A stretch of 64,000 nucleotides of DNA, taken from positions 1-64,000 of the forward strand of contig JAQGON010000111.1 of NCBI GenBank assembly GCA_028293565.1. The letters are read 5' to 3'. Origin of the DNA: Verrucomicrobiota bacterium (GTDB lineage Bacteria > Verrucomicrobiota > Verrucomicrobiia > Opitutales > Opitutaceae). A model generated the notes under the pieces. The model saw only the letters and a program-made list of their open reading frames with translations. It did not search any database and was not told where the DNA came from. Below are positions 19,956 to 38,584 of this stretch, piece by piece (position 1 is the stretch's first letter; every line of letters starts with the position of its first letter). Made by a program: the position numbers and the translations under genes.

Positions 19956-19997
19956 TGGGCCCACTGGGATTCGAACCCAGAACCAAAGGATTATGAG
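19956..19997 (-). pseudogene. 3' fragment of tRNA(CAU), intronless
   Basis: Reverse complement CTCATAATCCTTTGGTTCTGGGTTCGAATCCCAGTGGGCCCA is identical over 42 nt to the spliced 3' half of the tRNA at 20866-21175. Confidence 0.85.
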
Positions 19998-20334
19998 CGC
20001 GCGTGCTACCATTTTTGGATGATTACGAATGTCCGCTCTTCAACGCAAAATGTCCTGTTCTACGAATTGAAGTACAGCAGTTGCGGCAAAATCGAAGGAT
20101 CCCATGCCGTTAACCGCCGAACCTGAGATTCACTTCCCGGAGCCAAAAAGTGGCCAATGATTTCGATCCGGTTTCAACGTTCGCAGGTCTGCAAAAATTG
20201 AAGCGTAGGGTGCGCGGCGACACGCAGCGCTACTTTAATCGAGCCGACATTCCCTGCTATTTGATCCGGCTGAAATGCGGAGTCTACCGGGGGCACTTCG
20301 CGCTTGGCGCCGACCTCGACGAGGCAACGAGAAG

Positions 20335-20400
20335 TGGCACGGGTCTCCGACCCGTGAACGCGGACTCCGCCGACCGCGAACGTCGGGCTCAACCCTTCAG
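20335..20400. repeat. Repeat family A, copy 2 (divergent/truncated)
   Basis: GGCACGGGTCTCCGACCCGTGAACGCGGACTCCGCCGACCGCGAACGTCGGGCTCAACCC aligns with the start of copies 1 and 3. Confidence 0.65.
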
Positions 20401-20865
20401 TTCACCGCGTTCGGTCGGCTGCAGTCCGTGATCGCCGGCGCGACGGTCCGCTACGAGGGGCGCGAGAGCCCGAGACGGACCTGGGCCGCGAATGCCTCAA
20501 AGTCCCGCACACGACCGTGGCGGAGTACCTGGCACTCGTCCAAAAATACACCCAGCTCGACCCTCCGACTTTCGCTGGCTACCCGATAAAATTTCGCGGA
20601 ATCGTCGGAGCGATCATAGGCTTTAAGCCTACGGGGGCGGACAAATACTCCAGCCAGAGTCCCGTCACTTCGCTGTGGAGGAAAGCAGTGGATGCGGTGC
20701 CGCTCGCCAAAAGGCTAACGCGATCGCCGATGCGCTGCTGAGGAAAATGGTCGAGCAAGGCCTGGCTGTGCCAAGGGCGCGTGAGCATCCCGTCATAGAG
20801 TGTGTAACAAACTAGGATTGCAGCCCGCGCCCGCTTCCCCGACTACTCCCAGCTGTTCTTTGGCC

Positions 20866-21175
20866 GGGCCTATAGCTCAACGGTTAGAGCAGAGGACTCA
20901 TCAATTGGTGCCGGCGATCGGGAAACCGTCGCCGGGATTCGGGGAAATTCGGAGAAGCCGTCGCCTTCAACAGCACGGTAACGCCGAGCCGAGCTGCCGG
21001 TGCACTGGCAGAAGGTGTAGAGACTAGCGGAGGGTTTTAGTCCCTTAATGACCGCAACCAGCTCCCGACACCCGCAACGGATCATGCCGTGGGTGATGAC
21101 ATAGTCCAAGCCGGACGGAAACGACCGGGCACTTGAATCCTTTGGTTCTGGGTTCGAATCCCAGTGGGCCCACCA
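20866..21175 (+). tRNA. tRNA with CAU anticodon (Ile2 or elongator Met), interrupted by intron at 20902-21135, CCA encoded
   Basis: Exons 20866-20901 and 21136-21175 give 76 nt: 7-bp acceptor GGGCCTA/TGGGCCC, D arm GCTC/GAGC, anticodon loop CTCATAA, T arm CTGGG-TTCGAAT-CCCAG, CCA. Confidence 0.95.
20902..21135 (+). ncRNA. Group I intron (IC3-like, Azoarcus tRNA-Ile type) in tRNA anticodon loop
   Basis: 5' exon ends ...CAU paired with internal guide GUG (20908-20910); P2 hairpin CCGGCGA-T-CGG-GAAA-CCG-TCGCCGG; conserved GGTAACGCCGAGCC, GAAGGTGTAGAGACTAG and GACATAGTCCAAG with P7 GACTA/TAGTC (21022-21026 / 21102-21106); intron ends in G at 21135. Confidence 0.93.
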
Positions 21176-37171: not shown

Positions 37172-38584
37172 TCAGATCGCTGGAATGACTTCGAGGCCGC
37201 CGAGATCCAGCCCCGGCGCGTAGCCGAACGGGGCCCGCAGCGCGGAGCCGGTCGCGATCCGCCCCTCGCGCACGTCGAGCCGCGGCCAGCCCGCCGGACT
37301 GCGCGTGTAGAGATCGCCATGATGGGCGAGGACATGTTCCTGGATCGCCCCCGGAAATTGCGCGAGGCCGGCAAAATAATGGTGGCCGTTGCGCTCGACG
37401 CTCGTCACGCCGAGCACCGCCTGGATCGCGAGGTCCTGGAGCAGCGCCACCGGGCCCACGTTCGTCAGGTCCTCGCCGCTGAGCATCGCGGTTTTCCCGG
37501 CCGCGCGCCGCTGGGCAAGCAGGCACGCGTTGCCGACGCCCTTGAAGATTCCCTTGCAATTCTTGTGGCTGGTGCCGGCGTAGCCGAGCGCCAGCGCCGC
37601 GGGCAGGCTTCCGATCTCGGCGTCGGATTCGTCGATGATGATCGGCGGACGGTCGGGCCACGCCGACCACTCCGCCGCCGGAGCCAGCGCGACCTCCCGG
37701 TGCAGCGGCTGTTCGATGAAGAGCAGCTTCGGCCAGAATTCCTGCAGCGCCGCCTCGCCGAGCAGCGCGCGCATCTGCGACGCGAACACGGCGGGATCGC
37801 GAAAGCTTTCGTTTCCATCGAGCGAGAAGGCGAAGTCTCCGCCGCACTCGCGCGCGAGCACGGACGCAATCTGCCCCAGCCGGCCGCGCGCGCGGGAGAC
37901 GTCGGCGTCGATCTTGATCTTGAAATGGCGCAGCCCGTAAAACCGCACGCACGCCGCCAGCGACTGCGGCAATCCGTCGTTCACCCGCTCCGCCGGCGCG
38001 ATGTCGCATTCCTCGATCGGGTCGGCGAGCCCGACGGTATGGCGTGCGAAGACAACCTCCGGCGGCTGCGCCGGGAGCCAGTCCCGGACCTGGGAGCGGG
38101 CGAGCGACGAATGGAGGGCGCCCAGGTCGATCCCGAGCAGATTTTCGCGCAGCGCCGCCGCAATGTTCGTCCCCTTCGCCTGGCAGAAGGCGTCGAGCAG
38201 CGCGCGCTCGACGAGCGAGGTTCCGAACTGGGCGAGCAGCGGGGGAATCCGGTTCCGGCCGCCCCACGCCGCCTGCGAGGAATAGAGCTCGCGCCAGAAT
38301 TGAAAGGGCGTGGCCGCCGATATTTTTCCCGCGTGTGCGACGGCGGCGCGCAGGACCGACAGCATTTCGTCGATCTCGTCATCGAGGGCGCGCGCGGGAT
38401 CCTTCGTGAACCACTTCGGCGGCAGATGATCGGCCGCCAGACCCGAGTGGAGGCGTCCCTCGATCTCGAACTCCAGCCGGAGGAACACGTGCGGCACCTC
38501 GGTCATCGTCGCGATGCCGTAACGGAAAGGCATGCGCGTCCGGAGTGGAAGGCGGTGAAGCCACGAGTTCCTGAGTCTGATCAT
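37172..38584 (-). CDS. Enolase-superfamily enzyme (MLE/MR type)
   Basis: HFKIKIDAD (KxK), FSLDGNESF, LFIEQPL, IIIDESDAE, SHKNCKG. Confidence 0.85.
   Translation of the reverse strand: MIRLRNSWLHRLPLRTRMPFRYGIATMTEVPHVFLRLEFEIEGRLHSGLAADHLPPKWFTKDPARALDDEIDEMLSVLRAAVAHAGKISAATPFQFWRELYSSQAAWGGRNRIPPLLAQFGTSLVERALLDAFCQAKGTNIAAALRENLLGIDLGALHSSLARSQVRDWLPAQPPEVVFARHTVGLADPIEECDIAPAERVNDGLPQSLAACVRFYGLRHFKIKIDADVSRARGRLGQIASVLARECGGDFAFSLDGNESFRDPAVFASQMRALLGEAALQEFWPKLLFIEQPLHREVALAPAAEWSAWPDRPPIIIDESDAEIGSLPAALALGYAGTSHKNCKGIFKGVGNACLLAQRRAAGKTAMLSGEDLTNVGPVALLQDLAIQAVLGVTSVERNGHHYFAGLAQFPGAIQEHVLAHHGDLYTRSPAGWPRLDVREGRIATGSALRAPFGYAPGLDLGGLEVIPAI

Follow-up and report, generated by a model that had tools for sequence, protein, structure and literature searches.

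A tRNA-Ile2(CAU) gene split by a P7.1-bearing group I intron, with a boxA-like motif in its leader, in a member of the Opitutia

The window analysed in this study, a DNA stretch of 64,000 nt, contains a tRNA-Ile2(CAU) gene which is interrupted by a group I intron of 234 nt. The overall explanation favoured here, to which we assign a probability of roughly 0.8, is that this is a functional tRNA-Ile2(CAU) gene split by a P7.1-bearing group I ribozyme and preceded by a boxA-like leader. Transcription would yield an interrupted precursor, and the ribozyme would excise itself from it: P1, in which the exon sequence CAU pairs with the guide GUG, would present the 5′ splice site, an external guanosine bound in P7 would attack after U36, and the freed exon would then attack after the terminal G of the intron, by which nucleotides 36 and 37 would be joined. 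TilS would turn C34 into lysidine, so that the tRNA would read AUA. The boxA-like leader might recruit NusB-S10 and thereby allow the polymerase to pass the long, structured and untranslated precursor, or allow the precursor to fold well. The features of the locus are as follows:

20818-20846 (+): candidate promoter TTGCAG, 17 nt, GACTAC; putative, with a TTGC-like element recurring, as judged by eye, at a similar distance upstream of the motif in other split loci
20855-20861 (+): boxA-like GTTCTTT, located in the 5′ leader 4 nt ahead of the tRNA; associated with split tRNA-Ile2 genes
20866-20901 (+): 5′ exon of tRNA-Ile2(CAU), nucleotides 1-36; from the cloverleaf of the joined exons
20899-20910 (+): P1, exon CAU (20899-20901) with guide GUG (20908-20910), U.G at the 5′ splice site; invariant (11/11)
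20902-21135 (+): group I intron, 234 nt, terminal G; RF00028 match and covariation
20911-20935 (+): P2 with GAAA loop; four two-sided covarying pairs
20939-21068 (+): P3 (20939-20944 with 21063-21068), enclosing P4-P6 and P7.1; 100% paired, one two-sided change
20948-21015 (+): P4, P5, P6 and P6a; four covarying pairs in P6a, one in P6
21022-21106 (+): P7, the guanosine-binding helix (21022-21026 with 21102-21106); invariant
21027-21055 (+): P7.1 (21027-21030 with 21052-21055) and P7.1a (21031-21034 with 21042-21045), an additional domain separating P7 from P3; covarying across phyla, 0/500 shuffles
21069-21095 (+): P8; 98% paired
21107-21135 (+): P9.0 (21107-21110 with 21132-21135) and P9 with GAAA loop; an A-U to G-C change in P9.0, four covarying pairs in P9
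21136-21175 (+): 3′ exon of tRNA-Ile2 with encoded CCA; from the cloverleaf of the joined exons

Spliced in silico, the two exons form the perfect 76-nt cloverleaf which the first-pass annotation had described, with the anticodon CAU at positions 34-36 and an encoded CCA; ARAGORN confirmed it on the spliced sequence, the exon coordinates were exact, and the insertion point lies between tRNA nucleotides 36 and 37. The expectation that ordinary annotation would miss or mis-call the gene was borne out as well: in its default mode ARAGORN found no tRNA in the window, and with introns allowed it called a tRNA-Gln(TTG) whose 234-nt intron it placed at 33/34. This boundary was rejected, as the anticodon then wrongly reads TTG and as both P1 and the terminal G speak against it. 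Split tRNA-Ile2 genes represent a gene class that is dropped by routine annotation. No long ORF is present on the sense strand of the intron, the longest stop-free stretch being 45 codons, which agrees with the ORF-less group I intron proposed at first. Its description as a very small ribozyme holds in relative terms at most, since Azoarcus-type Ile2 introns mostly measure 190-224 nt. Gene structure, intron class, conserved helices, P7.1 and the association with the leader motif are established, and we infer that the intron splices.

The intron matches RF00028 (Intron_gpI) at 20890-21128 with 40.9 bits (E 4.2e-9 for 510 bases, 8e-9 for the whole genome). The proposed covariance check thus returned a match, albeit one below the curated gathering score of 50 bits, which is a detection cut-off and not a biological criterion. 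It has been judged unlikely that a single alignment such as RF00028 covers the diversity of group I introns (PMC6125680). A screen of 292 genomes of the order with RF00028 returned three genomes, one of them with a 23S rRNA intron and none with the second intron type described below (type B), while intron- and exon-based searches revealed at least 21 split Ile2 genes in the family; RF00028 was consequently dropped as a survey tool. A 23S rRNA gene with a group I intron was observed at L035 (G271:C58), where the intron ORF resembles, by eye, a LAGLIDADG homing endonuclease.

A hand-made structure was scored on 11 sequences of window-like introns (type A). In these, 93.1% of the pair cells are standard and 17 pairs show two-sided changes, which exceeds all 500 shuffles (0/500) and every slid control. 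As homologous introns occupy this junction in ten relatives, whose exons match, and in view of these pair changes, the sub-threshold RF00028 match is not a chance match. P1, P4 and P7 are paired in all 11 sequences, and the U.G at the 5′ splice site as well as the terminal G occur in 11/11 introns; the hallmarks named from the letters alone (P1 CAU/GUG with U.G, GAAA-capped P2, P7 GACUA/UAGUC, terminal G) are all present as claimed. Two-sided changes were found in P2, P3, P6, P6a, P9.0 and P9, whereas P4, P7 and P8 show conservation and no two-sided changes among the 11 sequences. Of the five pairs proposed for P5, three hold across the relatives and two fail. The minimum free energy fold recovered P2-P6, P7.1, P8 and P9 and missed the P7 pseudoknot, P1 and P9.0; thermodynamic stability alone was uninformative (z -1.67).

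The host is a verrucomicrobial member of the Opitutia, as the family member G301 is identical in sequence to the record 'Opitutia bacterium fen_1464' (L205 = L097); a verrucomicrobial host had already been suspected. Its genome (4.16 Mb, 99.6% complete) encodes 33 other tRNA genes, two of which also carry a CAU anticodon: one is initiator-like (L013), the other, with A4 and G5, resembles elongator tRNA-Met (L010). The pairs C4-G69 and C5-G68 are TilS determinants. As the split gene has both pairs and matches the Ile2 genes of the family, it is assigned to tRNA-Ile2, and we infer that its identity is conferred by TilS. The follow-up checks on these points turned out in favour of the annotation: the split gene is the only tRNA-Ile2 gene found in this 99.6%-complete assembly, in which no intact copy was detected, and tilS is present.

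One could imagine the split gene to be dead or silent, with AUA being decoded by a different tRNA such as a tRNA-Ile(UAU). Indeed, a tRNA-Ile(UAU)-like gene (L032; C112:6970-7043 of the same genome) was found with 50.5 bits and one mismatch in the anticodon stem; its sequence suggests that it could decode AUA too, and hence splicing of the split gene may not be strictly essential. In addition, three genomes (G149, G267 and G294) contain an intact next to a split Ile2 gene. A dead copy is nevertheless very improbable, as 11 genomes preserve the exons and the catalytic helices, with compensatory changes, as most genomes with a split gene, including that of the window, lack an intact Ile2 gene, and as tilS is retained.

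Type A introns occur in 11 of 252 family genomes, all of them at 36/37 and 71-91% identical to the intron of the window, the closest (91%) being from the same genus. An intron-less Ile2 gene with all 76 nucleotides identical exists both in a congener (G279) and in further genera, so that both intron-plus and intron-minus alleles, for which a search had been recommended, were found. Screening 390 genomes of the class gave no further full-length type A match. That the split gene has a conserved genomic context was rejected, as the flanking genes differ even inside the genus. A gene of unknown family at 37172-38584 (-) of the window has a homologue which adjoins tRNA-Ile2 in the congeners G279 and G457; here it lies 16 kb off. 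At 19956-19997 (-), on the strand opposite to the split gene and about 870 bp away from it, the window contains a 42-nt exact, intron-free copy of tRNA-Ile2 nucleotides 32-73, which by its sequence resembles the remnant of an integration site. A functional mobile element around 19956-20600 was rejected, this region offering two small ORFs without Pfam match. In G149, an array of about 25 tRNAs (L225; G149:C1:1304700-1309000), which has the appearance of a mobile element, lies about 15 kb from the split Ile2 gene and about 37 kb from a CCA-less intact one.

Within the same family, tRNA-Ile2 also hosts a different group I intron (type B), which is inserted after U33 (33/34), has no P7.1 and ends with GGTAAG before CAT. 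The first set, from eight further family genomes, was noticed as partial tRNA matches; additional cases were found by pattern, alongside named Verrucomicrobiota records (L054 and L123). Type B loci are L189, L192-L198, L229, L233 and L234, and in genus g107 one genome carries type A and another type B. Both types share the tRNA gene, the host family and the leader motif. Type B (e.g., in G149 and G307), however, sits 3 nt upstream of the type A site, lacks P7.1, is IC3-like with P7 GACCA or GACTA, and groups with a tRNA-Leu intron.

The motif GTTCTTT is located 3-12 nt upstream of the tRNA in 22 of 23 split Ile2 genes, comprising both introns, but in none of 70 intact ones (Fisher 1.9e-20, a value inflated by relatedness among the loci). 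It was first noticed in the initial split loci and then checked on loci fetched later, the numbers given being the final count, and it is the most enriched of all 7-mers in split-gene leaders. The association with the intron has the same direction in all 11 genera in which both states were sampled and differ. The sole split gene without the motif is that of G139; in g9 the intron-bearing gene lacks it. Among the 33 other tRNA genes of the window genome, a G[CT]TCTTT motif precedes one, that for His. None of 42 split tRNA genes of Pseudomonadota showed the motif. For Patescibacteria and Omnitrophota, where split genes only were considered, G[CT]TCTTT was found at most 40 nt upstream of the tRNA in L048, L078, L080, L087, L088, L093, L118 and L124, and almost never in shuffled leaders. 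That the leader motif pairs with the intron was rejected, as type A introns contain no consistent complement.

The leader agrees with the core GYTCTTT of the gammaproteobacterial boxA consensus GYTCTTTAANA and, like boxA, it lies ahead of a long untranslated RNA gene, within the leader (PMC5725501). The full consensus is not matched, since GG, CA or TT instead of AANA follow the core, although this consensus is gammaproteobacterial and may differ by phylum. The rRNA leaders of the family, where the boxA of the host would appear, are masked, as found with a 16S model, by 23S similarity and on direct reading. Prevention of termination by Rho and control of rRNA folding are attributed to the Nus complex (PMC5725501), and the 310-nt structured untranslated precursor would be a plausible client of it. 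Judged by this likeness, the odds are about even that the motif is a boxA-like element pointing to Nus-factor antitermination on intron-bearing pre-tRNAs. The broader idea that intron-bearing tRNA genes of Verrucomicrobiota, and perhaps of Patescibacteria and Omnitrophota, need a boxA-Nus complex, acting in antitermination or in folding, to be transcribed and spliced, with the element gained or kept together with either intron and missing from intron-free copies, is put forward tentatively and at somewhat less than an even chance.

GTTCTTT could also be a promoter or start-site element, as the TTGC element lies about 36 nt upstream of it. A promoter or initially transcribed element, or the mark of one ancestral locus, in either case with no role in antitermination, falls barely short of an even chance: a position 3-12 nt from the tRNA is near the expected transcription start, and all split genes could stem from one old locus. 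These readings have difficulties with the 70 intact genes, none of which keeps the motif although introns A and B differ in their site, and with the similar motifs before split tRNA genes in Patescibacteria and Omnitrophota; in addition, the sequence of the motif agrees with the boxA core but with no promoter hexamer.

Group I introns in tRNA-Ile2 are known from Azoarcus (PMC3984707) and have been reported in Acidovorax and Burkholderia, and 36 genomes were described in which group I introns hide an fMet or Ile2 gene (PMC8450103). A literature search with partial coverage yielded no report of group I introns in Verrucomicrobiota tRNA genes and, apart from one incidental co-mention, none tying boxA to group I introns. 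New in this study are the type B intron at 33/34 in other family genomes and the association of the leader motif with split genes, the latter being the part most worth testing. Transcription and folding of long untranslated tRNA precursors have been little studied, and with a boxA-like signal accompanying two different introns of a single gene, a Nus role in ribozyme-containing tRNA genes becomes directly testable.

Regarding the subgroup of the intron, closest kinship to the Azoarcus IC3 intron had been assumed at first. In the intron of the window, a hairpin composed of P7.1 and P7.1a and ending with CUUAAU.ACC sits between the P7 5′ strand and the P3 3′ strand. IC3 introns have no helix between P7 and P3, whereas P7.1 with P7.1a or P7.2 at this place defines IA introns, and it is the latter arrangement that the window intron displays. 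Extra P7 hairpins are regarded as a mark of IA introns (PMC3428280, PMC3984707). P7.1/P7.1a with compensatory changes was also found in introns of Elusimicrobia, Bacteroidota, Clostridium (tRNA-fMet) and a Methanosarcinaceae record. A core tree was limited to columns that are mostly filled by P7.1-less introns too, which omits most P7.1-specific columns; in this tree, which contains long branches, type A forms one group (99/98) that joins the P7.1-bearing introns (97/81). From the hairpin and this grouping the window intron is, with caution, read as P7.1-bearing and IA-like rather than as Azoarcus-type IC3.

That it is instead a homologue of the Azoarcus-type IC3 tRNA-Ile intron, vertically inherited or laterally moved, which gained a P7.1 insert, appears rather unlikely. 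The assumed kinship stands as far as the same tRNA, site and CAU/GUG guide and the similar P7 and J motifs are concerned. Yet shared site and guide say little on kinship, because the target anticodon forces them, and the P7 motifs are common to many tRNA introns of several subgroups. A clade of type A and the betaproteobacterial introns does not occur in the best tree and costs 15 log units, but the AU test does not reject it (p 0.20). The covarying hairpin common to bacterial and archaeal introns of other lineages, and the grouping obtained with most P7.1-specific columns omitted, speak against this homology.

Compared with known systems, the IA-like intron of the window resembles two sets of introns in different respects. 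The IC3 intron in tRNA-Ile(CAU) of Azoarcus BH72 and the betaproteobacterial Ile2 introns (Polynucleobacter, Leptothrix and others; for Acidovorax and Burkholderia see PMC8450103) share with it the 36/37 site, P1 with its U.G, GAAA-capped P2 and P9, P7 GACUA/UAGUC and the lack of an ORF. In contrast to it, they proceed directly from P7 to P3, their core groups elsewhere, and their loci have no GTTCTTT leader. The P7.1-bearing (IA-like) tRNA introns of Elusimicrobia NORP122 (L090), Cytophagales (L148) and an uncultured Clostridium (L070; tRNA-fMet, inserted after CAU) possess the same P7.1/P7.1a with CUUAAU.ACC and the same core motifs, but reside in other hosts and tRNAs and have diverged in their core sequence.
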